DNA of 37,962 nucleotides. Source: Flavobacteriales bacterium (GTDB lineage Bacteria; Bacteroidota; Bacteroidia; NORP154). The notes below the pieces were generated by a model. That model did not search any database. It was not told the DNA's origin and worked only from the letters and a program-made list of their open reading frames with translations. Made by a program: the position numbers and the translations under genes. The stretch spans positions 1 through 37,962 of the forward strand of contig DTRI01000096.1 of NCBI GenBank assembly GCA_012966015.1, in the 5' to 3' direction. This document shows, piece after piece, positions 13,821 through 37,962 of this stretch (within the stretch, counting starts at the first letter, position 1; each line of letters starts with the position of its first letter).

Positions 13821-14453
13821 TTAATTGACTATCTCCTGATTTATTACTTTATAGCCGGTTTCCTCCTCCACTATATTGGATAGCTCTGCCAATGTGGTTC
13901 GTGATTTATCAAATTTTACAATGGCCAATCCTTCCTTGTATGATGAGCTCGCTTCTATAACCGCCTTTTGATCCGCCAGGCTCTTTGTTACATGATGTTC
14001 ACATCCAGTACAGGTCATTCCCTTTATTTCCAGCCTACCCTCCGCAATATTCTCTTCACTCACCACAATTGTGATGTTTTCCGATTCCGGGAAGAAAACT
14101 CCTGAATAATAAGGGAATGCAAGCATGATCGCAGAGAAAACAGTAACAATACCCAGAAATTTGGCAGACTGAAAAAAAGAAGGCCTATCCTCCCCGCCTC
14201 CCGGGCTGGTGGTCTCACAATCACATTCGACTGCGGCTCTTTTGTTCTTTACATGCTGATACCAGGCAAAGCCCAAAACAACAACCGTGAACCAAATGAG
14301 ATACGGCCGTGCCGGTTCCAACCAGGATGCTGAAGCTGCTATTCCTGAAACACTGGCCACTGCAGCAATTACCGGTACAATGCAACACAAAGAGGATGCA
14401 ATGGCCGCAAGAACTCCAGCTCCGATTAATTTGTTATTTGATTTCGTGCTCAT
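13821..14453 (-). CDS. merTP: Mercuric-ion-type transporter MerTP (MerT membrane domain fused to HMA domain)
   Basis: MerT-like VLAAIASSLCCIVPVIAAVASVSGIAASASWLEPARPYLIWFTVVVLGFAWYQ; C-terminal HMA motif IKGMTCTGCEHHVTKSL. Confidence 0.88.
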   Translation of the reverse strand: MSTKSNNKLIGAGVLAAIASSLCCIVPVIAAVASVSGIAASASWLEPARPYLIWFTVVVLGFAWYQHVKNKRAAVECDCETTSPGGGEDRPSFFQSAKFLGIVTVFSAIMLAFPYYSGVFFPESENITIVVSEENIAEGRLEIKGMTCTGCEHHVTKSLADQKAVIEASSSYKEGLAIVKFDKSRTTLAELSNIVEEETGYKVINQEIVN

Positions 14454-14830
14454 GCGGCTTTGGTTTCCAACAATGATTCATTCGTAATAAGACGAAAGAA
14501 TCCGCTTAATAGTTTTGCCGTTTCCGGCCCAAGAGAGTAATAAACCATTGCACCAACCCTGTTTTTCTCAATTACATTGCCATCCTTCATCTTGCGCAAG
14601 TGTTGCGCGATGGCTGGAATTTGCATTTCCAGTATGTCACTTATGTCACACACGCACAGCCTCTCTTCCTGATGGAGTAAGTATAATATGCTCAATCGGA
14701 CATCATTACCCGCCAGATTAAATACGCCGGCCAGCTTTCCAATAAACTTCCTGGCGCTCTTCATGTTTTTCTTGCAGTCCCTGATTTGTTCTTTGTCTGC
14801 AAAGACTCTAATGCATTCGTTTTTGCTCAT
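14450..14830 (-). CDS. ArsR/SmtB family metalloregulator
   Basis: Winged-helix LAGNDVRLSILYLLHQEERLCVCDISDILEMQIPAIAQHLRKMKDGNVIEKNRVGAMVYYSL with the CVC-type metal motif; ATGA overlap with merTP. Confidence 0.9.
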   Translation of the reverse strand: MSKNECIRVFADKEQIRDCKKNMKSARKFIGKLAGVFNLAGNDVRLSILYLLHQEERLCVCDISDILEMQIPAIAQHLRKMKDGNVIEKNRVGAMVYYSLGPETAKLLSGFFRLITNESLLETKAA

Positions 14831-14852
14831 CTCGCTGTGGCTTTAGTTTTAA

Positions 14853-14884
14853 CAAAGATAGCCCTTTTTAATTGTTTAAGCAAA
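14853..14884 (-). promoter_or_regulatory. Promoter for the arsR-merTP operon (TTTG-N20-TATCTTTG)
   Basis: Minus strand: TTTG (14881-14884), 20 nt, TATCTTTG (14853-14860), start codon at 14830. Confidence 0.65.
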
Positions 14885-14894
14885 CTCTTAAACA
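14873..14894 (-). promoter_or_regulatory. Candidate ArsR operator: TGTTTAAG-N6-CTTAAACA, overlapping the -33 element
   Basis: Perfect 8 bp inverted repeat with 6 nt spacer; a second copy sits at 15439-15460 at the same distance from the -7 element. Confidence 0.6.
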
Positions 14895-15389
14895 TCTCGC
14901 ATTGGGGTATTAGCTTTTGTTAAATGCGCAGGAAGCATCCGATCGACTTTTGGAGAAAACACCCTGCATGGCCCACACCAGTCTGCATAAAAATCGAAGA
15001 CCGTAATATTGCCAGCAGACAGGTGCTCTATAAATTTCATTTTGCGGCCGCCTTTAATCGTCTTGATATCATATGAAGATCTTTCCTCATCGGTAAGCGG
15101 TTTTGCCAGTGACTCTCCCTTAAAGAGCACCTCAAAATTGGTGTTCGTAGACATGGCTGCTTTGATATCCGCTTCAGATACTTTTCCAATCACGGTGGAG
15201 GTCTTGGTTTCAAAATCCACTTTTGCACTTTCTACCCCTTCAAGTGCCTGCAACACCTTTGCGGCAGTATTTGCACAGCTGCTACAGGTCATTCCCTCAA
15301 TGGTAAATGTGAACGTTTGGGGGGGGTTGCCCGAAAACAAACGATGATACCAAGATCATTGCTGCTATCGCAAATTTGGCTTTTCTCAT
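14888..15389 (-). pseudogene. Secreted HMA-thioredoxin protein, frameshifted at a C8 tract and apparently C-terminally truncated
   Basis: ATG at 15389 gives signal peptide MRKAKFAIAAMILVSSFVFGQPPPN then a stop; HMA frame GNPPQTFTFTIEGMTCSSCANTAAKVL continues in another frame (ORF 14888-15340, TTG start). One C fewer joins them as ...VFGQPPQTFTFTIEGMTCSSC. Trx motif FYADWCGPCRVFSPKVDRML is followed by only ~15 residues. Confidence 0.75.
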
Positions 15390-15418
15390 AGTATGGTAGT
15401 AATCGATATGCAGTCACC

Positions 15419-15426
15419 CAAATATA
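15419..15426 (-). promoter_or_regulatory. -7 element TATATTTG of the HMA-Trx gene
   Basis: TAnnTTTG match on minus strand 12 nt from the upstream dyad, same geometry as the arsR promoter. Confidence 0.55.
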
Positions 15427-15438
15427 CTCGCTAATGCT

Positions 15439-15460
15439 TGTTTAAGAAAATACTTCAACA
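15439..15460 (-). promoter_or_regulatory. Second candidate ArsR operator: minus strand TGTTGAAG-N6-CTTAAACA
   Basis: One mismatch from the perfect dyad at 14873-14894; same spacing to -7. Confidence 0.55.
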
Positions 15461-15466
15461 TCGAAA

Positions 15467-16312
15467 TTAGTGGATGATTATTATTCTTTTATGCAATTCA
15501 TTACTTACTTTAATCAGATATGACCCGGAGGGAACAGCGCTAACATCAATTCCTTGCTCTTGTATTTGCTCTCCAGAATACCGAAACGAGATTTGGCCGG
15601 TAATGCTGTACAGCATTACTTGATCTACCACCCATTGATTGTCATTAAATATGAAACGAATATATTGGTCGGCGGGATTGGGAAATACAGTGAGCTTGTG
15701 TTCTTTGGGAGGATACTTTGAAAATCCTACAGTAGTAGCCTGAAATACTGACAATGATGTTGTGTGAACATTCCCGGCAGGTGCCGATATTGGACTGTCA
15801 GCGGATACGCCAGCCGCATAAAGCCTGATCGGGCCAACATTAACTGATGGTGCGATCCATTGGAATTGCCAGGTAAAAAACCCCGCTCCAACATTATTCG
15901 GATTTGAGGCGCCGTAATGAGAAACATATTCCCTGGCTCCGGCCAATTGAATATATGTGTTTAAACTATCCAGTATCACGAAATCCCCCATCCTCAAATT
16001 GTTGCTGTCCAATGCAGTCATTTGAAAACCGAATATCTTCATGCTGCTATCGGTAACGGTTAACGATACATCATAAACCGTGTCGGGTTTATAACTATTC
16101 GCTCCATTATTAAACACGATATCTATACTTGCATTCGGAGGATTTAGTTCGTCCAACAAATGGCACCCGGCGGTATAGCATGTCTCCTCACCCGGAGCTC
16201 CTGTCTTGCCCGTTGGTGGAACGAGAGAAAATGTGGTCCCAATTTTATGCAATGCCAAGACCAACAATAACACAAAAACGCTGACGGCCCATTTTTTAAT
16301 CTTCCAATTCAT
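15467..16312 (-). CDS. Choice-of-anchor V domain-type T9SS cargo protein
   Basis: PPTGKTGAPGEETCYTAGCHLL...YDVSLTVTDSSMKIFGFQMTAL...GAGFFTWQFQWIAPSVNVGPIRLYAAG; C-term KLTVFPNPADQYIRFIF...GSYLIKVSNELHKRIII. Overlaps the RND gene by 17 nt. Confidence 0.75.
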   Translation of the reverse strand: MNWKIKKWAVSVFVLLLVLALHKIGTTFSLVPPTGKTGAPGEETCYTAGCHLLDELNPPNASIDIVFNNGANSYKPDTVYDVSLTVTDSSMKIFGFQMTALDSNNLRMGDFVILDSLNTYIQLAGAREYVSHYGASNPNNVGAGFFTWQFQWIAPSVNVGPIRLYAAGVSADSPISAPAGNVHTTSLSVFQATTVGFSKYPPKEHKLTVFPNPADQYIRFIFNDNQWVVDQVMLYSITGQISFRYSGEQIQEQGIDVSAVPSGSYLIKVSNELHKRIIIIH

Positions 16313-19300
16313 CTTGGTTCTTGTTCTTTAAGTGCTTTTTTAAGGCTTTTTCACCAAAGAGATAAAATACGACCGGTGTTACAATTATATCCAATAAGGT
16401 TGAGCTGACCAGCCCTCCGATAATTACAGTAGCTACAGGGTAGAGAATTTCCTTTCCGGGAGCATCTTTGGCCAGAGTAAGGGGAATAAGTGCCAGGGCA
16501 GCAGTTAATGCTGTCATCAACACGGGTACCAGCCTTTCCAAAGATCCCCTGATTATCATTTTTCTGTCGAACCGCTCACCTTCATTTTCGACTAAATGCA
16601 CGTAGTGAGAAATCATCATAATACCGTTTCTTGAAGCTATACCGGTGAGGGTAATAAATCCAACCAATGAAGCTACAGAAAATACGCCTCCGGTGAGCTT
16701 TACAGCAACAACACTGCCTATCAATGCAAGGGGGATGTTGAGCATTACCTGTAGCACAATACGAGGAGATTTGAAGTAGGAATACAGTGCTAAGAAAATA
16801 CCCGCAAGGGAGAATAGGCTCAATATCAAAATAAGGCGAGAAGCTGACTTTTGACTTTCAAATTGACCACCATAGGTAATGAAGTATCCCTGCGGCAAAT
16901 CAATCTCTTGTTTGATCTTATCCTCCAATTCAGCGACTGTACTGCCTAAATCTCTATCCGATACATTGCATGATACTATCATCCTGCGCTGCGTATTCTC
17001 GTGATTGATGGTGTTGGGGCCATTTTCAAAATATACATCTGCAATTTCTTTTATGGGAATCAACTCCCCGGTTGGTGTTTCCATCAATGCCCTGCTGATC
17101 TCTTCAATATTGTTTCGTTCATTCTCAGGCAGCCTAAGTACCAGCTCAAAGCGTTTTTCTTTATCCAGAATTTGAGATACCACTTTCCCCTGATACATTA
17201 TCTCCAGATCCTCAACAATCTCTCCTCTTTCCAAGCCATAATATTTGATAGCGTCATCTTTGGGTCGAATTAGCAACTGTGGAATTTGAACCTGTTTCTC
17301 AATCTGTATATCAACCACGCCATCAACAGTAGAGATCGTGTTTTTTACGTTGCTGGCGTATTTTCTCAGCTCCATCAGGTCGTTTCCAAATATTTTTATG
17401 GCCACCTGTGCCCTTACGCCAGAAAGCAAGTGGTCGAGCCTGTGTGAAATCGGTTGGCCGATATTAAAGGTGATTCCCTTCAACACAGACAGCTTTTCTC
17501 TGATATCCTGAATAATCTCATCCCTGCTGCGATTATTGGCACTCTTCTTAAAAGCAACCTCAATCTCAGAATTGGCAACCGGCTCAACATGCTCGTCCAA
17601 TTCTGCCCGGCCTGTTCTTCTGGCGGTAAATGCCACTTCAGGTACTTTCAGAATTTGTTTCTCGGCAATGCTGCCCAGCTTATTGCTTTCCTCCAAAGAA
17701 GTTCCGGTCGGCGCAACTGTATTGATGGTTAGAGACCCCTCGTTGAATGGAGGTAAGAATTCAGTTCCAAAAAAAGGAACAAATGAAAGGGCGATCAGAA
17801 ACAGAGCTGCTGCACCTATCAAAACTTTCCTTGGATTGCTCAGTCCGAAGTTGAGTAGTTTGGCATCTTGCTTCTTGAGCCATCTCACCAGGCGCCCATC
17901 CTCTTCCGTCTCCATTCGCTTAATATTCGGAAGCAGATAGTAGCACATGGCCGGCGTAACTGTTAAGGCAACAAGCAATGAAGCTATTATAGATGTGATA
18001 TAGGCAATGCCAAGTGGTGCAAATATTCTTCCTTCCATGCCACTTAGAGCGAATAGGGGAATAAATACCAATACCACGATGATTGTCGCATAAACAATGG
18101 AATTACGCACTTCTGTGGAGGCATTATATATGACTTTGATTGCTGGTTGTGGATTTGCCGCATTTCGGTTTTCCCTCAGGCGCCTAAAGACATTTTCCAC
18201 ATCTACAATGGCATCATCTACCAATTCGCCAATGGCAATGGCTATTCCGCCCAGCGTCATCGTATTTATACTGATGTCGAATACTTTGAATACCAACGCG
18301 GTAATAATAAGCGACAGCGGTATCGCGGTAAGGGTTATCAGCGTAGTTCTGAAATTCAATAAAAACAGAAACAAGACGATAATAACCAGAATTGCTCCAT
18401 CCCTCAACGCCTCTATCACATTAGATAGGGCTGCATCAATAAAATCCGCTTGCCTGAAGACATCCGTATTTATCCTGACATCCGGAGGTAAGGAAGGTTG
18501 TAATTCATCCAATGCCTTTATGACTTCGGCAGTGAGATCAATAGTGCTGGCGTTGGGTTGTTTTTCTACGGTAAGTATGACTGCGGGAATACCATTCAGG
18601 CTACCGTCACCCCTTTTGAATTTCGCCCCAAATTTTACTTCCGCTACCTGAGAAATCAATATGGGCGTATTGTCAGTATATCCTATCACAATATCCTCTA
18701 TTTCCGTCAGTGACGCTATCCTGCCCAGGTTTCGTATCAATACTTCAGATCCGCTTTTATTGAAAAAATTTCCGGTAGTGTTGAGGTTTGATTTTTTCAA
18801 TGCATCCAACACTTGGTTGATGGACAGGCCTGTAGCATTGAGCTTCGGCATAGAAACCAACACCTGATACTGTAGTATATCACCACCTGTAGGAATGACC
18901 TGAGATATTCCCGGGATAGACAATAGCCTTCTGCGAATGTCGTAATCGGCTATGGTCCGTAAAATAGCCATCGACGTGGTATCCGCCGACAGCCCAATTA
19001 ACATTATCTGTCCCATAACAGATGTTATTGGACCTAATACGGGTGTAACCCCATCCGGCAAGAGCTCCTGAATGGTTTGCAATTTTTCATTGACAATTTG
19101 CCTTGCCTTGTAGATATCAGTTCCGTAATCAAACTCCACAAATACCAACCCCAAGCCGATCGAAGAATTGGAGCGGACCTGTTCAACATTGGCAGCACCA
19201 TTTAAGGCGGTTTCCACGGGCAAGGTAACCAGGGCCTCGACTTCCTCTGGCGCCATGCCCTCAGCCTCCAAAAAGACAGTTACCCTGGGGCGATTCAGGT

Positions 19301-19421
19301 CTGGTAATACATCGACTGGCAACTCCAATGCGGTATAGGTTCCGCCGATCATCAAAATGATCGCGAAAGCAATCACGATCATTCGGTTTACTAGAGAGAA
19401 CTTTATTATTTGGTTTAGCAT
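16296..19421 (-). CDS. Heavy-metal efflux RND transporter, CusA/CzcA family
   Basis: 1041 aa; VNRMIVIAFAIILMIGGTYTALELPVDVLPDLNRPRVTVFLEAEGMAPEEVEALVTLPVE; TM4 GGIAIAIGELVDDAIVDVENVFRRL; GFITLTGIASRNGIMMISHY. Confidence 0.93.
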   Translation of the reverse strand: MLNQIIKFSLVNRMIVIAFAIILMIGGTYTALELPVDVLPDLNRPRVTVFLEAEGMAPEEVEALVTLPVETALNGAANVEQVRSNSSIGLGLVFVEFDYGTDIYKARQIVNEKLQTIQELLPDGVTPVLGPITSVMGQIMLIGLSADTTSMAILRTIADYDIRRRLLSIPGISQVIPTGGDILQYQVLVSMPKLNATGLSINQVLDALKKSNLNTTGNFFNKSGSEVLIRNLGRIASLTEIEDIVIGYTDNTPILISQVAEVKFGAKFKRGDGSLNGIPAVILTVEKQPNASTIDLTAEVIKALDELQPSLPPDVRINTDVFRQADFIDAALSNVIEALRDGAILVIIVLFLFLLNFRTTLITLTAIPLSLIITALVFKVFDISINTMTLGGIAIAIGELVDDAIVDVENVFRRLRENRNAANPQPAIKVIYNASTEVRNSIVYATIIVVLVFIPLFALSGMEGRIFAPLGIAYITSIIASLLVALTVTPAMCYYLLPNIKRMETEEDGRLVRWLKKQDAKLLNFGLSNPRKVLIGAAALFLIALSFVPFFGTEFLPPFNEGSLTINTVAPTGTSLEESNKLGSIAEKQILKVPEVAFTARRTGRAELDEHVEPVANSEIEVAFKKSANNRSRDEIIQDIREKLSVLKGITFNIGQPISHRLDHLLSGVRAQVAIKIFGNDLMELRKYASNVKNTISTVDGVVDIQIEKQVQIPQLLIRPKDDAIKYYGLERGEIVEDLEIMYQGKVVSQILDKEKRFELVLRLPENERNNIEEISRALMETPTGELIPIKEIADVYFENGPNTINHENTQRRMIVSCNVSDRDLGSTVAELEDKIKQEIDLPQGYFITYGGQFESQKSASRLILILSLFSLAGIFLALYSYFKSPRIVLQVMLNIPLALIGSVVAVKLTGGVFSVASLVGFITLTGIASRNGIMMISHYVHLVENEGERFDRKMIIRGSLERLVPVLMTALTAALALIPLTLAKDAPGKEILYPVATVIIGGLVSSTLLDIIVTPVVFYLFGEKALKKHLKNKNQDELED

Positions 19422-19450
19422 CTTATTTCAACTTGCAATAGGCAATTTCC

Positions 19451-21184
19451 CTATTGATTTAAGTAAATAGATTTCACCTGGTAGGTGCCGTTGACAACTA
19501 TTCTTTCTTTTTCTTTTAGTCCTTTTAAAATAATTGTTTCATTGGTGTTGCCCTGGCCCAATTGCACAAAGTTCACTTTAAACAATTCCGGAGCATTATG
19601 GGTAAACACCACCGGTTTCCCGTTGAGGTCGCTTATTGCAGAAGTGGGCACTACCAGAAGATTCTCATCAGATTTCGCCGTTACGTACACGTTCGCAAAT
19701 TGTCCGGGTTTGAATAACCCCTGTGAATTATCGAGTTCCAGTATCACCTGTGAAGACTGGTTAACGGGATTCACCACGTTTCCAAAGGCTATGAGGTGTG
19801 CACTTTCAGAATAGTGCTTCTCCTCTTGTATACATTCCACAAAAAATTTGACATCCTTGCTAATCTCTATTAAATCTGGGTGGTGCAGCTGATGCATGTC
19901 TTTATCAAATATCTGTGCTTCAACCTTTAGTGTTTTGGTATTATAAACACTGAAAAGCTTTTCTCCCTGTGCAATCTGTTGTCCAATTGCCAGGTTGAAA
20001 TTGTCAACTACACCGGAGATGGGCGACTTTACACTAAGCACTTTACCCCGCGCATAATTTCCGGAGAGATTATCGTATATCTTCTTGTTTTTTAAGGCGG
20101 TTTTGTATTGTATTTCAGCTTCTATTAAATCTTTTTTAGCAACAATATCATCAATGGATTTCAGCCGCTGCAGCTCTTTTTGGGCAGCTTCATAGGCCGC
20201 CACCGCTTCGCTGCTCGCCGTTGCCAGCTGAATCTGTTCAGCTGCATCGAAATTCTGTGCTATTACCGCTAGTATTTGCCCTTTACTCACTTTTTCTCCA
20301 ATGCCAATATTGATTGACACGATCGATGCATTTTGAGGTGCAATGATCTTTGCCTCTCCGTTGGTAACGGGCATTATTTTCCCATAAAGTTTAAGCGCAT
20401 TTTGAAAATCACTAAACCCCGTTAAGGCTGTACGAATATCGAACAGAAACTGTGTTTCCTTCAGTATCTCTGCCTCATCCACGGCCATATTTCCTCTGGT
20501 GGGTTTCTCTTTCTGCTCATCGTGATCCTCTCCGCCATGGGCGAATACCGTTTCGTAGCTACCGACAGGGATTGAAATAGTCAGCAGAACGATCATCACA
20601 CTAAAGGTTTTTTGAGACATCACCTTATTTCTACCAATTAAGCGTGTAATTACAGCGCCTGCAACCAATCCAACAAACAACAGGAGCATGGCTTTCCAAT
20701 TGAACCATGAGCTTTGATCATGGCTGTGCTCATCATCCAGCATTATCTTTTTCCCAACGTCAACGCTTTCCAGGATCATTAAATCTGCTTTTCCAAAGCC
20801 TGAAATATTGGCGACCAGGCTATACTCTTTGTTCTCCGGGAAAGTGGCTTCAACGTGGTATATTCCAGGTTCATGTTGAGTCACCTTAAATTTCAGGTCC
20901 CCATCTTCTATACATGTGATTTCAATCCTGGCATTGTCAATTGCTCTATTGGTTTCATAATCAGAGACAAACAATTTCATCTCGGCATGCTCACCAGCTT
21001 CAAACGGTTCGTAGCGCAGAACTACTTCAAAGTTGTCTGAAACACTATTAACCGTAAACCAGGACTTACCTGTTGGTTTTGATTCTTCCTTTTTTTCTCC
21101 GTGATCCTCGCCGCCATGAGCCACAGCTACGAATCCTATCAAGGTCAAACTCGTTGTAATGAGAATTGTTTTTATAGATGTCAT
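19451..21184 (-). CDS. RND efflux periplasmic adaptor (CusB/HlyD-type) with extra N-terminal membrane-anchored domain
   Basis: Adaptor core IMPVTNGEAKIIAPQNASIVSINIGIGEKVSKGQILAVI...VKSPISGVVDNFNLAIGQQIAQGEKLFSV; ~190 aa N-terminal extension with TM segments and repeated AHGGEDH. Confidence 0.88.
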   Translation of the reverse strand: MTSIKTILITTSLTLIGFVAVAHGGEDHGEKKEESKPTGKSWFTVNSVSDNFEVVLRYEPFEAGEHAEMKLFVSDYETNRAIDNARIEITCIEDGDLKFKVTQHEPGIYHVEATFPENKEYSLVANISGFGKADLMILESVDVGKKIMLDDEHSHDQSSWFNWKAMLLLFVGLVAGAVITRLIGRNKVMSQKTFSVMIVLLTISIPVGSYETVFAHGGEDHDEQKEKPTRGNMAVDEAEILKETQFLFDIRTALTGFSDFQNALKLYGKIMPVTNGEAKIIAPQNASIVSINIGIGEKVSKGQILAVIAQNFDAAEQIQLATASSEAVAAYEAAQKELQRLKSIDDIVAKKDLIEAEIQYKTALKNKKIYDNLSGNYARGKVLSVKSPISGVVDNFNLAIGQQIAQGEKLFSVYNTKTLKVEAQIFDKDMHQLHHPDLIEISKDVKFFVECIQEEKHYSESAHLIAFGNVVNPVNQSSQVILELDNSQGLFKPGQFANVYVTAKSDENLLVVPTSAISDLNGKPVVFTHNAPELFKVNFVQLGQGNTNETIILKGLKEKERIVVNGTYQVKSIYLNQ

Positions 21185-21185
21185 A

Positions 21186-22361
21186 TTATTTTCCTTTTAA
21201 ATAATTCAGTTCGATAACGGAGGCGTTATACTTTTTTAACGCTTCATAATAGTTGGTTTTTATTTCGAATGCCTGGCTAACTGAAAACAGATATTCAATA
21301 TAGCTTATCTCACCGGCGGTATAGGAACGCGATGCAGCATCCAAAATAACATCTGATTGCTTCAGGCCCACAGAATCAAAGTACTCTAATGATGCCTGGT
21401 TCGCCTGATATGCCTGAATCGCATCGAACCATTTGAAGTTAAAATTCTGCGCCGCCATTGCGCCTTCAAATGATCTCTTCTCAGCATTCGCTTTTGCAGC
21501 CTTAATGCGTGCAGTATGGGTCCAAAACCATAGGGGTAGCGATAATCCAAATTGAAATCGATACGTTGTCGATGAGGTGAGCTCAGCCTGATTCATGTAA
21601 CCAAATGAAAAATCTGGAGCCAATCCAAATTTTGCCAATTTCAGCTCTTTCCTGGCCACGACCGTGTTTTGGTTGGCATAATCAATAAATAGTCCCGAAG
21701 AAGGTGCTTCAATGATACTTTCATTGTAATCAAGCTTTTCATATGCACTAGCAGTAAGCATGCCCTTTATATCAATTCCTGTGAGCAAGCTGAGGCCTAA
21801 TTGAGCACTTTTCAATTGGGCCCGTGTCTGAGCGAGTTCAACAGAAGCTTCGCCTGCCCTGGCCTCTGCACTCGTGAGCTCAAGGAGTCCAACATCCCCA
21901 GCCTTATGGCGCTTGTCGGTTGCCAGATAATGGGCTGTGAAAATACTATCCTGTGTGACCGCCTGCCTGGCTCTTGCTTCTGAATACTGAAGCTGATTGT
22001 AAGCCCGGCTAGCCTGTCGGATAACGGCAGCCCTGCTAATCCGTATGCCTGCTTCTGCCAGTTTTACTTTCTCCTTTCCTACTTTGGATTGCTGAATGTA
22101 AACCAAAGGGTTATCAATGCTCTGTTGAATTCCAGGCGTGAAGAATTCGCCCGTTGGCGCCTCCAGCATCAATTGAGGGTCCGGCAGGCTAAAGCTTCCC
22201 TTCTTCAAGGCTCTCTGTTCTTCCAGCTCCAATTGCGCTGCTTTTAAATACGGGTGCTTTTTCAAAGTCTCGGCAATAGCGCTGTCCAGGCTGATTGTGG
22301 ACTGAGCAAACAACCCCAACCAAACGCATACGAGTAAAGCAGATAGCGTAACTCCTTTCAT
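21186..22361 (-). CDS. TolC family outer membrane efflux protein
   Basis: SLDSAIAETLKKHPYLKAAQLELEEQRALKKGSFSLPDPQLMLEAPTG...; coiled-coil rich; operon with adaptor and RND pump. Confidence 0.88.
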   Translation of the reverse strand: MKGVTLSALLVCVWLGLFAQSTISLDSAIAETLKKHPYLKAAQLELEEQRALKKGSFSLPDPQLMLEAPTGEFFTPGIQQSIDNPLVYIQQSKVGKEKVKLAEAGIRISRAAVIRQASRAYNQLQYSEARARQAVTQDSIFTAHYLATDKRHKAGDVGLLELTSAEARAGEASVELAQTRAQLKSAQLGLSLLTGIDIKGMLTASAYEKLDYNESIIEAPSSGLFIDYANQNTVVARKELKLAKFGLAPDFSFGYMNQAELTSSTTYRFQFGLSLPLWFWTHTARIKAAKANAEKRSFEGAMAAQNFNFKWFDAIQAYQANQASLEYFDSVGLKQSDVILDAASRSYTAGEISYIEYLFSVSQAFEIKTNYYEALKKYNASVIELNYLKGK

Positions 22362-25337: not shown

Positions 25338-26888
25338 TTATTCAACTATCACCGTTCCAATTCCAGCTATCTCTGATTTATTCATCAAGTGTAAAAAATA
25401 AATCCCCTTGGTTAAGCTCTCTCTATTAATTGTTATTTGTCCATCCTTAATATTATCAACCGCTCTCACCATTTGCCCCATGGAATTGTAAATCAATAGC
25501 GTGTGCTTTTCGCCATTATTATTTTCAAATTCCAGCGATGTGTAGGCGCTGAATGGATTTGGAAATATTTTAATGTTATTCTTCCCGTTCGTCACATCGT
25601 CATTATTTATCCCAACATTTTGCTCGAAAAATAATGCTCCCATATCCGACCTGGTACCATCTGGGTCGAATGGGCTGCCTGGATCGGCAACATCAATACA
25701 CGGAGAGATCGATTGCAAGCTGAAATCATTGTTCAACGAATCAGTAAAAACGGGACTTAAATCAATATTACCAGTTCCTATGTAGCCCCCCTCCACATCA
25801 CTGAATGTGACAATCACATTGCTTACAATAGGATCTAATATATTTATACTTTGAAAATTATTACCCCAAATTATCGTATTAGATACAGAAACATCCGAAG
25901 TGTCTCGTATGAATATTCCACTTCCTTCATTGAAAACAATCGTATTGTTGATAACAGTTGCGGACGAATTGAATAGATCAATCCCGTTCGGAGAATCTCC
26001 CCAGGATCCAGTTATCGTATTGTATGCTATATATGGCGCTCCTCCATTACATGCAATACCACTACCAATAATAACATAGCCCCCTCCATTAAAAACGATA
26101 TTATTATTTGTAATGATCGACGATGAATTCTCACAATAAATCCCTCCGCCATCTGCAAAGGATACCATATTTGAATCAATTAAATTATGATCAATGGTGG
26201 GGGAGGCGTTAATGCAGCAAATTCCTCCTCCATTACCATCCAGCCAGCTCGCACCATATCCGTTTCTTATGGTAAATCCGCTTATTAATGCTGCAGCGCC
26301 TTCACCATTGGTAAAGGTGACAACACTGCTGCTATCTCTACCATTAATTATGGTTTGGTCTATATAAGATTTATCCCCCGTTGTGAGGTAGAGAGACGCA
26401 ACAACTATGTTCTTCCCTGTGAAATTGATGTTCTCAAAATAGGTTCCCGGTGAAACAAGAACCGTGTCGCCGACATTTGAGGCGTTAATACCTTGTTGAA
26501 TAGTCGGGAAATCGTTGGGAATATTAATAACAGCAACAGGAGCAGGGTCGCTTACCACAATGCTAGCATCCATATGGCCTCCTCCCGAAGGGTGACATGT
26601 ATAATTGTATGTTCCGGGGACAGCTACTACATAGGTGAAGCCCGAACCTCCGATAGTTGGTGAGTTCCATGAGGCAGCCCCAGGCGGTATGCTTGTAGAG
26701 GCAGTAGTATGCTGGCCATTTCCATTTACCCACTTTATTGTATCTCCGGTGACGGCGGTTGCCAATGAAGGAACAAACCCTTCTACAGGAGTGCTGTTGG
26801 CAGTAATAATGACAACGCTTGCACTGGTTATATTAAATGTAAATATGAATACGAACAATAGACCGATAACGAAATTCCTTCTCTCCAT
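25338..26888 (-). CDS. T9SS cargo protein: N-terminal cupredoxin-like domain, right-handed parallel beta-helix, type A sorting domain
   Basis: GDTIKWVNGNGQHTTASTS...GTYNYTCHPSGGGHMDASIVVSD; FPTIQQGINASNVGDTVLVSPGTYFENINFTGKNIVV and NTI/N-rich helix repeats; C-term IKIFPNPFSAYTSLEF...KGIYFLHLMNK. Confidence 0.85.
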   Translation of the reverse strand: MERRNFVIGLLFVFIFTFNITSASVVIITANSTPVEGFVPSLATAVTGDTIKWVNGNGQHTTASTSIPPGAASWNSPTIGGSGFTYVVAVPGTYNYTCHPSGGGHMDASIVVSDPAPVAVINIPNDFPTIQQGINASNVGDTVLVSPGTYFENINFTGKNIVVASLYLTTGDKSYIDQTIINGRDSSSVVTFTNGEGAAALISGFTIRNGYGASWLDGNGGGICCINASPTIDHNLIDSNMVSFADGGGIYCENSSSIITNNNIVFNGGGYVIIGSGIACNGGAPYIAYNTITGSWGDSPNGIDLFNSSATVINNTIVFNEGSGIFIRDTSDVSVSNTIIWGNNFQSINILDPIVSNVIVTFSDVEGGYIGTGNIDLSPVFTDSLNNDFSLQSISPCIDVADPGSPFDPDGTRSDMGALFFEQNVGINNDDVTNGKNNIKIFPNPFSAYTSLEFENNNGEKHTLLIYNSMGQMVRAVDNIKDGQITINRESLTKGIYFLHLMNKSEIAGIGTVIVE

Positions 26889-26951: not shown

Positions 26952-27098
26952 CTTAGACAAAGGTAGATAGAACTATTACCATAGTAAATGGACAATTCCC
27001 GCTAAAGCAGGTACTTTTTCTGGATGTTCTCTCTGAACTCGCTGGGTGAAACGCCGATTTTATTCTTAAAAAAACGACTGAAATAGGAGGGATCTTCG
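26952..27098 (-). repeat. 147 bp direct repeat copy 1 (3' end of AraC gene plus downstream promoter region)
   Basis: Differs from 36706-36851 by one substitution and one T indel by eye: cttagacaaaggtagatagaactattaccatagtaaatgg...gggatcttcg. Confidence 0.95.
26958..26965 (-). promoter_or_regulatory. Candidate -7 element TACCTTTG inside repeat copy 1, upstream of 25338-26888
   Basis: TAnnTTTG match on minus strand; dyad ACTAT-GGTA-ATAGT just upstream. Confidence 0.45.
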
Positions 27099-27925
27099 TA
27101 ATTCAGGAAATAGGCAATCTCTTTGTTGCTGAATTCCGAATACATCAGCAGTCGTTTTGCTTCCAGGATGATCCTGTCGCTTACCAGGTCGCTGGCCGTT
27201 TTGCCACGAATTTTTCTGGCTTTTTCATTTAGCTGTTCTGGCGTTGTTGAGAGCAAATCCGCGTATTCTTTTACCAGGTGCAGCTTTCTGTAGTTCTTTT
27301 CCACCAACATCTTGAAATTATATATCAGATCAGATGACAGATTGTCTTCAGGGCTGGTATCACTTTTTAATTGATCAAAAAAGCCCTTGCTTTTAAGTAA
27401 TATGATATTCAGATAGGATCTGATAACAGGTTCTTTCAGCTCATGGTCGCTCCGGTATTCGTTCTTTATGCTTTCTACCAGGCTTTTAAAAATCTGGAAA
27501 TCGCTATCACTCAAGTTCAAAATTGGTTTTGTGGTGTTATTATTCAGAAATGGCAGCTCGTACAATATGTTTTTGTTCGGGAGGTTGAGGTAATAAAAAT
27601 CCCTTGAGAAAAAGAGAACATATCCAAACGAGTCCAGTTCTCTTTTTACCTTGTGCACCTGGCCCGGTGAGACAAAGTGCACACTATTCGACTCAATTGG
27701 GAAAACTTCGAAGTCAATTTCATGGGTGCCGCCTCCCTCTATAAAGAGAAATATTTCATAATAGTTGTGCCGGTGAGGAATAGAGGTGTCATAACTTTCT
27801 CTGTGCTCCAATAGCTCCAATTCAAAATCGACACTGGATTCATCGTCACTTGTGAAGTCGTGGATGGGGATTTGTTCTTGCATGTTTTCTAGATTACACG
27901 TGGGCCGGCAATTCTGCCATGCCAT
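27002..27925 (-). CDS. AraC family transcriptional regulator (cupin-like sensor plus HTH)
   Basis: N-terminal HRHNYYEIFLFIEGGGTHEIDFEVFPIESNSVHFVSPGQVHKV; C-terminal SNKEIAYFLNYEDPSYFSRFFKNKIGVSPSEFRE. Confidence 0.92.
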   Translation of the reverse strand: MAWQNCRPTCNLENMQEQIPIHDFTSDDESSVDFELELLEHRESYDTSIPHRHNYYEIFLFIEGGGTHEIDFEVFPIESNSVHFVSPGQVHKVKRELDSFGYVLFFSRDFYYLNLPNKNILYELPFLNNNTTKPILNLSDSDFQIFKSLVESIKNEYRSDHELKEPVIRSYLNIILLKSKGFFDQLKSDTSPEDNLSSDLIYNFKMLVEKNYRKLHLVKEYADLLSTTPEQLNEKARKIRGKTASDLVSDRIILEAKRLLMYSEFSNKEIAYFLNYEDPSYFSRFFKNKIGVSPSEFRENIQKKYLL

Positions 27926-32854: not shown

Positions 32855-35800
32855 TTATCGTATTAGGCTAACTTTTTTGGTATGGACTGTTCTTCCATCG
32901 TGAACTCTTATGTAGTAAATTCCTCTGGAGAACTCAGATAAATTAACACTGTAGTTCTCTCTTGCTGATCTCGTAACATCATCAATAACTAATACCTTCC
33001 CTGAGATGTCGAATATCGTAACATTGATATCGCGGTTGCTTTCCTCACTAAAATCGAAGTGTACAACTCCGCTAGTTGGGTTTGGATAGATGTTGAATTC
33101 AAATTCTTTCTTGATAATAATGATTCCCATCACAACAGAATCCAAATAGATACTTCCGCCTCCCGTACATCCGTTGGCATCGGTAACCACCACACTTTGG
33201 CTGCCCAGGCAAAGCCCGATAGCAGTTGCCGTGGTTTGATTAGCGGGATCGTTCCATGCGTAGGTATATGGCGGTGTGCCCCCTGATACACTTGCTGTTG
33301 CAGTGCCATCACAAGCAGTCTCTGCCGATACCTTTATATACGACATAGAGGTACTCATCAAGGTAGGTTCGGTAATCGTAACAACTGATGTGGCTATACA
33401 TCCCATGGAATCCGTTACAATAACATTGTACACTCCAGCGGGAAGGCCGGTTGCAGTACTCGAACTTTGCGAAACCGCATCACTCCACAGATAGCTATAA
33501 GGCAAACTCCCACCTGATGCAGCTACCGTTACACTTCCATCACTACTCCCGAAACACGATGTGCTTTGCGAGGTGGTAAAGACAGTGGGCGCACCAATAT
33601 TATTCACTGACACTGAAGTTTCAGTTGTGCAACCATTGGCATCTGTTATGGTAACATCATAAAGGGCAGCGGATAAATTACTGGCTGTTGATGTAGATTG
33701 CCCATCGCTCCATAAGAAGGAATACGGGCTCGATCCATTGCTCGCACTAACATAGGCAGTTCCATCAGAAACACCGCATGTCGCATCTGTACTTGTTGTA
33801 ATGGCAACAATTGCCACCGGCTCGTTTATGGTCACCTGATCAACTGTGTTGCAGCCATTGGCATCATTAATGGCTACCGAATAGGTTCCGGCACAGAGTC
33901 CCGTAGCAATGGAAGCAATTTGAGCAGGGGATGAATTCCAATAGTAATAATAGGGGGCTGTTCCACCGGTAATTGTAACAGATGCGTTACCGTCGCATAG
34001 GCCCGCACAATTCGCATCAGTTGAAGTTGCCACCGCAACTATAGAAGGGCCACTGCTTATTGAAACCGTGGTTGTTGCCACGCAACCATTTGCGTCTGTT
34101 ATTGTTGCAACATGACTACCCGGACAAAGCCCCGTTGCCGTGCTTGAGTTTTGTGTAGGTGTGGTATCCCAGCTATAGGTGTAGGGAGTTGCTCCGTTAA
34201 TAGCAATTGCTGTTGCAGACCCATCACACGCTCCCACACAGCTTGTACCGTTACCCGTTGAGGTTGCGGTCATCATGCTTCCACCCGACGCCACAATTAC
34301 AGCTCCTGTGCCAGTACATCCATTTCCATCTGTAACCGTAACAGAATGTGAGCCCGCGCATAAGTTGGTGGCGGTAGCTCCACTTTGTGGAGGAGAGGTG
34401 CCCCAGTTATATGTGTAAGGTGTTGCCCCATTTGCTCCGCTTGCCGTAGCGGTTCCATCACATGAACCACAGGCTGCATCTGTAGATGTCCCTGTAACCG
34501 TAGGTGCATTCACAATTATCATGGAAGTTGTTGTTTTTGTATTGCCGCCATCTCCGTTAATGGCTGTTAATGATACCGTATAAGTACCAGCCGAATTATA
34601 GACAACAGTTGGGTTTTGATTGGCCGAACTATTGGGTGTGCCTCCAGTGAAGGTCCATGCCCACTGTGTGGGCGTATTGGTACTCAGATCAGTAAAAGTA
34701 ACCGTTCCTCCTTCACAAATACTCGTGGAGCTGGCAGAAAAGTTGGCCACGGGTGGGGTGCCACCCGCAGTTGCATGTATATTAATATCATCTATATACA
34801 GGTTGTTGCCATAATCGCCTGTACCCTTAAATGCAATCATAACGCTTGATAGTCCATCAAAGGCCGCTAAGCTAATATTTGCTGAATCCCATTCTGCAAT
34901 AGCTGGATAATAATGTCCTCCGCTGTACGGAGCCGCGGTAGACAGGGCTGATCCTGCCTTGTCAAATACGTTGGTCCAGGTTGCTCCACAATCATCCGAA
35001 ACATTGACTTCCAATCTATCATTTTCATTAATGTACTGAGCGTAAGCATAGGAGAACCTAAGACCGTTTCCCCAGTTGGTGCTCAGGTCGATGTTCTCAA
35101 AAACTATGGTCGCCTCGCTTCCAGCCGCCCACGTATAAAATCGCATTCTCCATGACAGGTCACTATTTCCATATCCACCTAAGGGCCAGGTTACTGACGG
35201 GCCGCCTACAGCATTACTAACTACATAAGTGTTTTCCGCATTGTCGTTAATAACAATTGCATTATCAATGGCTTTCGTACCCGAGCTATAACTTTCAAAG
35301 CCCTCCGAATGAGAGGTTGCAAATGCAACTGCAGATATCGTGTTAATAGTCCCAGAGCTGGCCGCATTGTTACCAGACACGTTGTCAATAAGCTTAATAG
35401 CAGCGCCCAAATTCACGCTGTAGTCAATCGTATGTGACCCGCTTGTTAGCACAATAGCTGGAAATGTTATTGTAGCCGATCCTGAAGGGGCCAGGCTACT
35501 GGTTCCAGCGAGAACAACAGGAGCACCACCATCCAAGACATAGTTCACCTCAAAGGTATCAACTGTCATTGAGCTGTTATTCGTCACGGTAATCTCAGGA
35601 GTAACATTGGCATCACAGTAATTGGCAGGCATGGTCATATTGGTAGATGCGCTGAGATCCACCAGGCTGACTCCTGGAGGCATAATTAAATTCATAGACG
35701 CTTTGTTGCCCGAGATAATTTCTTGCTGGCCTTCTGCAATATAAACAACGACCTCCAGATCGAAGAGATTATAATCAACTCCATTTAAGTCCGCTGGAAT

Positions 35801-36553
35801 TGTGTAGGTATACTGATTCGTAAAAGTTGTTCCAGATGTAGTAGCCGTTGTCACCGTACCCCATTGGCCAGACAGAAGATGTCTTAGCATGTGCTGGTGA
35901 TTGTAATTACCATTGGGTAGAATGTTTCCCGGGTTGAATGATGTAGCTCCCGTTTGAGGACCTTCTACGTTATTCTGCAATAGAGCGACATTAATGTTAT
36001 TAACCCCTGTACCGTTCGCAGTATAATAGGCTTCAACATCTACTGTTAATACCCTTGTAGTATAGTCAAGGGTTGCTTCTGCAGCAATATTTACATACGA
36101 TGATTCGCCCAGAGAGATTCCCGCTGAATTCGTCCAATAGCTTCTACTCATTGCGGTGCAAGTGCTACAGTCGCCCATGCCAGTACCAGAAGGATTGGCG
36201 CTTGGTCCAGTGTTGGGAAATGGGTGTCTGTTTATTGTTCCGGCAGGATAGCCCGTTAATTGAGACTGGGAACTAATTGCAGTTCCAAAAGAAGTGCGAA
36301 AATCCGGGTCCCCACTAGTTCCTGGGTCTGCATACCCTCCAACATGGATGTTGACCAATACTACATCGTTGGGATTGTCATCGGCTAGCTGTTGAGCCCT
36401 TTTGTGTCCATCCGGACAAAACGTGCAATAAATACCGGTAAATTCTTCCAGCACTACATTTTTGTTTTCGGGAGTTTGGCTTACAAAAGTTTGTGCGTTT
36501 GTAAAAGCACAGACACCTGTAATTAATGCAATTGAGAGTAATGATCTTTTCAT
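32855..36553 (-). CDS. Omp28/thioredoxin-like-fold T9SS cargo with PKD domain, six tandem SprB-type repeats and type A sorting domain
   Basis: N-term KNVVLEEFTGIYCTFCPDGHKRAQQL...VLVNIHVGGYADP; PKD GGTVTFTDLSTNTPTQWAWTFTGG; tandem CDGTATASxxGGxxPYTYxW..GLCxGxxxVTVTDANGCT; C-term EFNIYPNPTSGVVHFDF...RGIYYIRVHDGRTVHTKKVSLI. Confidence 0.9.
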   Translation of the reverse strand: MKRSLLSIALITGVCAFTNAQTFVSQTPENKNVVLEEFTGIYCTFCPDGHKRAQQLADDNPNDVVLVNIHVGGYADPGTSGDPDFRTSFGTAISSQSQLTGYPAGTINRHPFPNTGPSANPSGTGMGDCSTCTAMSRSYWTNSAGISLGESSYVNIAAEATLDYTTRVLTVDVEAYYTANGTGVNNINVALLQNNVEGPQTGATSFNPGNILPNGNYNHQHMLRHLLSGQWGTVTTATTSGTTFTNQYTYTIPADLNGVDYNLFDLEVVVYIAEGQQEIISGNKASMNLIMPPGVSLVDLSASTNMTMPANYCDANVTPEITVTNNSSMTVDTFEVNYVLDGGAPVVLAGTSSLAPSGSATITFPAIVLTSGSHTIDYSVNLGAAIKLIDNVSGNNAASSGTINTISAVAFATSHSEGFESYSSGTKAIDNAIVINDNAENTYVVSNAVGGPSVTWPLGGYGNSDLSWRMRFYTWAAGSEATIVFENIDLSTNWGNGLRFSYAYAQYINENDRLEVNVSDDCGATWTNVFDKAGSALSTAAPYSGGHYYPAIAEWDSANISLAAFDGLSSVMIAFKGTGDYGNNLYIDDINIHATAGGTPPVANFSASSTSICEGGTVTFTDLSTNTPTQWAWTFTGGTPNSSANQNPTVVYNSAGTYTVSLTAINGDGGNTKTTTSMIIVNAPTVTGTSTDAACGSCDGTATASGANGATPYTYNWGTSPPQSGATATNLCAGSHSVTVTDGNGCTGTGAVIVASGGSMMTATSTGNGTSCVGACDGSATAIAINGATPYTYSWDTTPTQNSSTATGLCPGSHVATITDANGCVATTTVSISSGPSIVAVATSTDANCAGLCDGNASVTITGGTAPYYYYWNSSPAQIASIATGLCAGTYSVAINDANGCNTVDQVTINEPVAIVAITTSTDATCGVSDGTAYVSASNGSSPYSFLWSDGQSTSTASNLSAALYDVTITDANGCTTETSVSVNNIGAPTVFTTSQSTSCFGSSDGSVTVAASGGSLPYSYLWSDAVSQSSSTATGLPAGVYNVIVTDSMGCIATSVVTITEPTLMSTSMSYIKVSAETACDGTATASVSGGTPPYTYAWNDPANQTTATAIGLCLGSQSVVVTDANGCTGGGSIYLDSVVMGIIIIKKEFEFNIYPNPTSGVVHFDFSEESNRDINVTIFDISGKVLVIDDVTRSARENYSVNLSEFSRGIYYIRVHDGRTVHTKKVSLIR
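33130..34506 (-). repeat. Six tandem ~75 aa (~229 bp) SprB-type repeats
   Basis: Six units of the pattern CDGxAxxxxxGGxxPYxYxWxxxxxQxxxxAxGLCxGxYxVxVTDANGC counted in the translation. Confidence 0.85.
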
Positions 36554-36705
36554 GAGTGAGTTTTTTTGATTACTAAATCTTGTAAAAATTAATTAGTTTT
36601 CAGGATTAAAAAGATTGTGAGCCACCCCAGTAATAACAGAGCGCTTGCCAAAAGGCAGGCGTAAAGGTACAAAACTTTCTATATATAATATATATGCGTG
36701 ACTCT

Positions 36706-36851
36706 CTTAGACAAAGGTAGATAGAGCTATTACCATAGTAAATGGACAATTCCCGCTAAAGCAGGTACTTTTCTGGATGTTCTCTCTGAACTCGCTGGGT
36801 GAAACGCCGATTTTATTCTTAAAAAAACGACTGAAATAGGAGGGATCTTCG
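36706..36851 (-). repeat. Direct repeat copy 2: AraC 3'-end fragment plus promoter region, in front of the 32855-36553 gene
   Basis: Near-identical to 26952-27098; AraC reading frame fragment without the rest of the gene; one T deleted near the former C-terminus. Confidence 0.95.
36712..36719 (-). promoter_or_regulatory. Candidate -7 element TACCTTTG inside repeat copy 2
   Basis: TAnnTTTG match, same as copy 1. Confidence 0.4.
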
Positions 36852-36899
36852 CAATGTTGTTGTATAGATAGGGGGCGGAGCTCGTTGTGGTCAATGTAT

Positions 36900-37962
36900 C
36901 TATTTGGCTACCACGAACTTTTTGGTGGCTCGGTCCTTTCCGGAATAAATATTCAGATAATATACTCCTGTTCTCAGCGCGGTGGCATCAATTGCTATCT
37001 GATAACTTCCCTTCGACAGCTCCCGGTCAACTACCGTTCTTATTTGTTGCCCCATGATGTTGTACAGCACCACTCTGGTATCTGCTCTTTCTTTCACGTT
37101 TAATCTCAAAAATCCAATTGCATTCATTGGGTTGGGGAAGATCTCGCTAATACCGATCTGCGTGTCTGGGCTTTCGTCCATGCCCACAGCTATAGGCCCC
37201 GAGACGTTCAGGATTTCGTTGGTCTTCAGCTCTGTGGCATCATAATAGGAAACAAAGCCGATAAGCGTAATGTTTGCCTCGTTGTATGCTTCAGGAAGCG
37301 TGTAAGAATAGTTTTGTGAGTAGCTGGAGCTGGGCAGCACCAATGATGGAATTACAGAGCTTGTTCCCAGTGCGCCCGAAGGAACGGCCCGGAGCACATA
37401 TCTGTGGTCATATGCCAAAATTGGATTAGAAAAACCATACAGCGGGTGTGCAGCTCCCCCTGCGCCCTCGCTCTGGCTGCTGTAGTAGTTCACCTGGTCA
37501 TATCCAGCTCCCGTATCGGCCGCTATGTGGTCTTCAACGACATACAAGTTAAACCTCATGTCGCCCGTGGCGTAGTCAACAAAGTTGGCCGTCACCGTTG
37601 CATCAATAACACGCGTACTATAATTATATGATTTGGTAACAATAACATTTAATACCGCACCCACATTGACCCTGCTGGCGCAATTATTCATCCAGGCATT
37701 GTCAGCTCTGCTAATGGGTAGCTTTTCTTCACCTTCATACAGGACCCTGTCTATCATTGCCCTTGGATAAATTGTAACGCCATATTCCGATGCAAGATCG
37801 AGCCCCTCCTGAATTTTCATGCTGTCTGCTTCCGACCCGGCGTGGATAATTACGGGTACTACATTCGCATTTGTCGAGACTATGTCATCCAGCTCCAAAT
37901 ATCCATCCGGGCAATATCCGCACCATGCACCAGTAAACTCTTCCATTAATACATTTCGCGTG
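36900..37962 (-). CDS. Omp28-related T9SS cargo protein (5' end off window)
   Basis: TRNVLMEEFTGAWCGYCPDGYLELDDIV...VPVIIHAGSEADSM; frame open past the listed ATG at 37946 to the window edge; C-term ISEIFPNPMNAIGFLRLNV...TGVYYLNIYSGKDRATKKFVVAK. Confidence 0.87.
   Translation of the reverse strand, partial: TRNVLMEEFTGAWCGYCPDGYLELDDIVSTNANVVPVIIHAGSEADSMKIQEGLDLASEYGVTIYPRAMIDRVLYEGEEKLPISRADNAWMNNCASRVNVGAVLNVIVTKSYNYSTRVIDATVTANFVDYATGDMRFNLYVVEDHIAADTGAGYDQVNYYSSQSEGAGGAAHPLYGFSNPILAYDHRYVLRAVPSGALGTSSVIPSLVLPSSSYSQNYSYTLPEAYNEANITLIGFVSYYDATELKTNEILNVSGPIAVGMDESPDTQIGISEIFPNPMNAIGFLRLNVKERADTRVVLYNIMGQQIRTVVDRELSKGSYQIAIDATALRTGVYYLNIYSGKDRATKKFVVAK

Follow-up and report, generated by a model that had tools for sequence, protein, structure and literature searches.

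A recently duplicated araC-end and promoter segment that may supply a second T9SS cargo gene with an extra promoter in a Flavobacteriales bacterium

A 147-nt segment comprising the 3' end of an AraC-family regulator gene and the predicted promoter of the neighbouring T9SS cargo gene occurs a second time in the same contig, upstream of another T9SS cargo gene, and this second copy is absent from the corresponding site in two relatives. We lean towards the reading that a recent duplication, not mediated by a transposon, gave the second cargo gene an extra promoter, probably under the same AraC regulator. The window analysed (37,962 nt) is the entire contig C96 of a 3.5-Mb, 79%-complete draft genome in 421 contigs.

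Results and Discussion

Two near-identical copies of an araC-end segment

The copies, at 26952-27098 and 36706-36851, are direct repeats separated by ~9.6-9.75 kb. They differ by one substitution (agaactatt/agagctatt) and one 1-base T indel, and share identical blocks of 20, 42 and 83 nt. Direct comparison reproduced the coordinates, orientation and both differences as written in the initial annotation, which was also right in describing copy 1 as the 3'-terminal 97 bp of an araC-family gene plus the start of the spacer before a T9SS cargo gene, and copy 2 as lying in the same orientation upstream of another such gene; copy 2 in fact sits between two T9SS genes. BLAST extends the match slightly (26952-27102 and 36706-36855, 98%), and both repeat edges are abrupt at 99% identity. 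The relevant features, all on the minus strand, are as follows.

26952..27098, minus strand: copy 1, most likely the donor; araC 3' end, stop codon and predicted cargo gene 1 promoter to about +2; single ortholog in G001 (88%) and G002 (82%)
36706..36851, minus strand: copy 2, most likely derived; same segment, with a 1-base deletion that shifts the reading frame of the araC tail; missing from the syntenic G001 and G002 spacers
27002..27925, minus strand: AraC-family regulator gene, 307 aa; HTH_18 (3e-17) and AraC_binding (2.3e-7), both passing Pfam cut-offs
25338..26888, minus strand: cargo gene 1; beta-helix protein ending in a T9SS sorting tail; its N-terminal part weakly resembles pseudoazurin, a copper protein
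32855..36553, minus strand: cargo gene 2; Omp28-like domain, PKD and SprB repeats, T9SS sorting tail
36900..37961, minus strand: Omp28-like T9SS gene located upstream of copy 2 and incomplete at the contig end; also the neighbour in G001 and G002

The regulator has the C-terminal AraC helix-turn-helix and the N-terminal ligand domain that define its family, and its stop codon, at 27002, lies inside copy 1. The T9SS sorting tail family is the sole feature shared by cargo genes 1 and 2.

The genome search for more copies that had been suggested at annotation returned only these two in the assembly. When up to 3 mismatches were allowed, the 31-nt promoter part was observed 2 times against an expectation of 0.00 in shuffles. 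In a self-comparison of ~0.88 Mb of sampled contigs, taken by stretches and equal to a quarter of the genome, this was the only pair on a single contig to exceed 60 bp in length and 1 kb in separation. An exact-pattern scan of a collection of genome contigs, from which near records were perhaps excluded, gave no match, neither the G001 spacer nor the other flank of copy 2 was multi-copy, and Rfam returned no match. The sampled contigs also contain a dispersed family of ~110-178 bp with 90-94% identity, apparently non-coding and present on three contigs (L077:2774-2951, L175:7561-7738 and L076:1-112), perhaps a small mobile element or repeat.

A conserved footprint and a -7 box within the segment

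In a three-way alignment of copy 1 with its orthologs in two genomes of the same genus, G001 (JACZWC010000012.1) and G002 (NVRZ01000030.1), the araC-cargo spacer is only 44% identical outside a run of 15 invariant columns, AATTGTCCATTTACT (permutation p 0.0001). This footprint starts 5 bases past the araC stop codon and is followed, after a spacing of 17 bases, by a putative -7 box, TACCTTTG. Both elements recur intact in copy 2.

26983..26997, minus strand: footprint AATTGTCCATTTACT at about -44 to -30, conserved without change in three species; proposed AraC site
36737..36751, minus strand: footprint AATTGTCCATTTACT in copy 2, intact; sequence match
26958..26965, minus strand: putative -7 box TACCTTTG of the cargo gene 1 promoter; consensus match
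36712..36719, minus strand: putative -7 box TACCTTTG in copy 2; consensus match

The -7 consensus of Flavobacterium psychrophilum, TAnnTTTG, is located at -12 to -5 (PMC9723704). Placing our box likewise puts the footprint at -44 to -30 and the end of the copied piece at about +2, that is, at the predicted transcription start. With the box at -12 to -5, the footprint would overlie the -33 region of a Bacteroidetes-type promoter, where a -33-overlapping activator would bind. When seven genomes of the family were searched for the footprint core together with a -7 box, the combination turned up at these sites only. In three genomes araC and cargo gene 1 remain paired, with the footprint between them, from which we may fairly infer that this AraC protein controls cargo gene 1. 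For the uncharacterised regulator that araC encodes, predicted to act on a T9SS cargo gene, AATTGTCCATTTACT is a concrete candidate site.

A different binding site had been proposed initially, namely a dyad, ACTAT-GGTA-ATAGT, said to be present in each copy. This dyad, located between the footprint and the -7 box, is intact in copy 1 only, as the substitution turns its second arm into ATAGC in copy 2. The equivalent positions in the relatives read ACTTT-GGTA-ATGGC and ACTTA-GGAG-ATTGT. Given its imperfection in copy 2 and its lack of conservation in both G001 and G002, the dyad was discarded as an AraC site and is unlikely to be an operator.

Copy 2 is absent from the syntenic site in two relatives

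G001 and G002 each carry one copy of the segment, at the end of the orthologous araC gene and before the orthologous cargo gene, and no copy was found in 96 other genomes of the class. Cargo gene 2 and the same Omp28-type neighbour are present in both relatives, and the syntenic spacer between them lacks copy 2, as seen in the comparison with relatives that the initial annotation had advised. By gene coordinates, this spacer measures 346 bp here, or 200 bp minus the copy, and ~194 bp in G002 and ~267 bp in G001. Once freed of the copy, it aligns in parts with that of G002, for example at CTACTGGGG and at TTTTGTAC(C/A)TTTA; its alignment with G001 is poor. Within 36554-36705, upstream of cargo gene 2, there is also a small hairpin-like sequence, GCCTTTTGGCAA, identical in G001 and not in G002.

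Since the relatives keep the gene pair without the insert and carry copy 1 only, copy 2 is most likely an acquisition of this lineage. The frameshifting deletion in its araC tail is found neither in copy 1 nor in G001 or G002, which indicates the direction of copying, with copy 1 the most likely donor. Moreover, only 2 changes separate the two copies, versus 12-18% against copy 1 of the relatives, suggesting that the event is recent. The proposal of a recent duplication of a promoter-bearing segment thus finds support in the two copies, in the relatives lacking copy 2, and in the presence of both the footprint and the -7 box within the copied piece.

Possible origin of copy 2 and its effect on cargo gene 2

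We propose a single recent copying event in which the 147-nt stretch, running from the araC end over the stop codon to about +2 of the cargo gene 1 promoter, would have been placed 9.75 kb away, in the same orientation, in the spacer before cargo gene 2. The likeliest route would be illegitimate recombination or template switching at a few bases of end homology. At the araC-side junction, the sequence is ATTGCGAAGATCC in copy 2, ATTACGAAGATCC in the donor and ATTGCGATCC in the spacer of G002; suggestively, this junction may lie within a short shared stretch, with the G coming from the recipient. At the opposite junction, GTCTAAGAGAG resembles GTCTTAAAGAGA of G002. These homologies are weak and, having one diverged relative as their basis, suggestive only; they would be compatible with illegitimate recombination or with a templated insertion. 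A transposon, insertion sequence or MITE was rejected as the vehicle, as terminal inverted repeats, a target-site duplication and further copies are all lacking: the window contains no inverted repeat pairs of at least 24 nt, and inspection by eye of the edges CTTAGAC and GATCTTCG and their flanks revealed neither terminal repeats nor a target-site duplication, in agreement with the earlier remark that no IS ends were seen.

Copy 2 presumably exists in the organism itself, and we consider it improbable that it is an amplification or assembly artefact in which chimeric fragments put araC-end sequence into the spacer. Such an origin would be in keeping with an incomplete draft genome, with the length of copy 2, which approximates one short read, and with other short, spurious-looking duplications in the same assembly. 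On contig C112 (L092:4024-4108), 75 bp of sufB coding sequence recur, exact and inverted, beside a 10-N gap before sufC, resembling an assembly or amplification chimera. On contig C10 (L060:4310-4370), an inverted insert of ~48 bp in ksgA, with its source ~260 bp away, introduces an in-frame stop and is absent in G001; it is likely an artefact, or else ksgA is disrupted. Further inverted pairs in the sampled contigs (44 and 52 bp) lie at a contig end and next to a gap. However, these cases are inverted, lie less than 400 bp from their source and for the most part adjoin gaps or ends, whereas copy 2 is direct, 9.6 kb from its source and away from gaps, in a window without N, and has both flanks syntenic with the relatives. 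In addition, the 75-bp and ksgA inserts are exact while copy 2 differs from its source at two internal sites. Chimeras formed during MDA resemble copy 2 in being short misplaced segments, often with junctions at a few shared bases (PMC1855051), a likeness whose relevance depends on the use of MDA here; 85% of them are inverted, and direct chimeras within 10 kb made up 11/475 (PMC1855051), whereas copy 2 is direct, less than 10 kb away and carries two differences from its source. Contig ends share exact 55-bp matches in the sampled contigs, which suggests assembly by a de Bruijn graph with k=55. The graph would then hold the 83-bp identical run in common for both copies and leave it to read pairs to resolve, while the promoter side of copy 2 has differences of its own. 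A contig mis-join at the repeat is unlikely in view of the conserved synteny on both flanks of both copies.

If real, copy 2 could in principle be the remnant of a larger duplication of the whole araC gene and promoter, the remainder having been deleted. Inclusion of an araC tail with no evident use in copy 2 would suit such a history, but the abrupt edges and the extra deletions required make it very improbable, and a site starting so close to the araC stop would readily drag the tail along when copied. In the scenario of direct copying that we prefer, copy 2 probably acts as an additional promoter for cargo gene 2, read by the same AraC-family protein, because the -7 box and the conserved site at -44 to -30 are retained. 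The predicted 5' leader would be ~154 nt for cargo gene 2 versus ~65 nt for cargo gene 1. A genuine but neutral duplication, with cargo gene 2 relying on its own promoter and copy 2 lacking any regulatory effect, seems to us rather unlikely. Cargo gene 2 may indeed have an older promoter nearer the gene, TTTTGTACCTTTA, partly conserved in G002 as TTTTGTACATTTA; the copy is too recent for intact elements to indicate selection, and the predicted structure of the ~154-nt leader is of unremarkable strength (z -1.4). Against neutrality, every footprint base and the -7 box are intact and aimed at cargo gene 2, and no terminator was found between copy 2 and that gene.

Comparison with known forms of promoter reuse

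Putative mobile promoters are defined by near-identical upstream sequences before non-homologous genes of one genome, by an active promoter, and by occurrence at several loci or in several genomes. Near-identical upstream sequences before non-homologous genes are present here, and the consensus -7 box and the conserved footprint mark, at the sequence level, a putative promoter. Spread over several loci or genomes was not observed, with 2 copies in this genome, 1 in each relative and 0 in the 96 others. Promoter propagation of this kind was described by Matus-Garcia, Nijveen and van Passel (2012), as cited in PMC8049555. Our case is similar in that near-identical promoter sequence precedes different genes within a genome and no transposase was seen, and dissimilar in having two copies only and in a piece that includes coding sequence of the regulator. 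In promoter capture, as for the citrate transporter in the E. coli long-term evolution experiment, a gene likewise acquires a promoter via duplication by illegitimate recombination (PMC11111574), but usually by tandem duplication or deletion, whereas here the insertion is dispersed, 9.75 kb off. The alteration of an intergenic region with retention of the flanking genes also recalls horizontal regulatory transfer, or switched intergenic regions (PMC5890482).

Promoter reuse by duplication is thus already known, and the present case, probably one of ordinary promoter reuse, adds a neat example in which an ancestral-like empty site can be seen; it is not a new system and leaves general understanding unchanged. 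If confirmed, it would be a clean example of one-step regulon gain in which donor, recipient and ancestral-like empty site are all visible. More tentatively, the transposon-free copying of a target promoter and regulator-gene tail onto a second secreted-protein gene within one genus could be regarded as a natural one-step regulon expansion.

Genomic context of the regulator and cargo gene 1

The association of AraC-type genes with sorting-tail genes recurs elsewhere: distant AraC relatives (~40% identity) at L044, L045, L046 and L047 adjoin genes with T9SS-like sorting-tail ends. Behind AraC relatives outside the genus (~50% identity and below), sometimes near sorting-tail-like genes, no recognisable motif copy was seen by eye. 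The pseudoazurin match of cargo gene 1 (1.2e-5) is far under the curated cut-off. On the same contig as this pseudoazurin-like cargo, positions 13821-22361 hold a cluster of MerT/HMA, HlyD/CusB-type and OEP outer-membrane efflux genes, probably for metal efflux.
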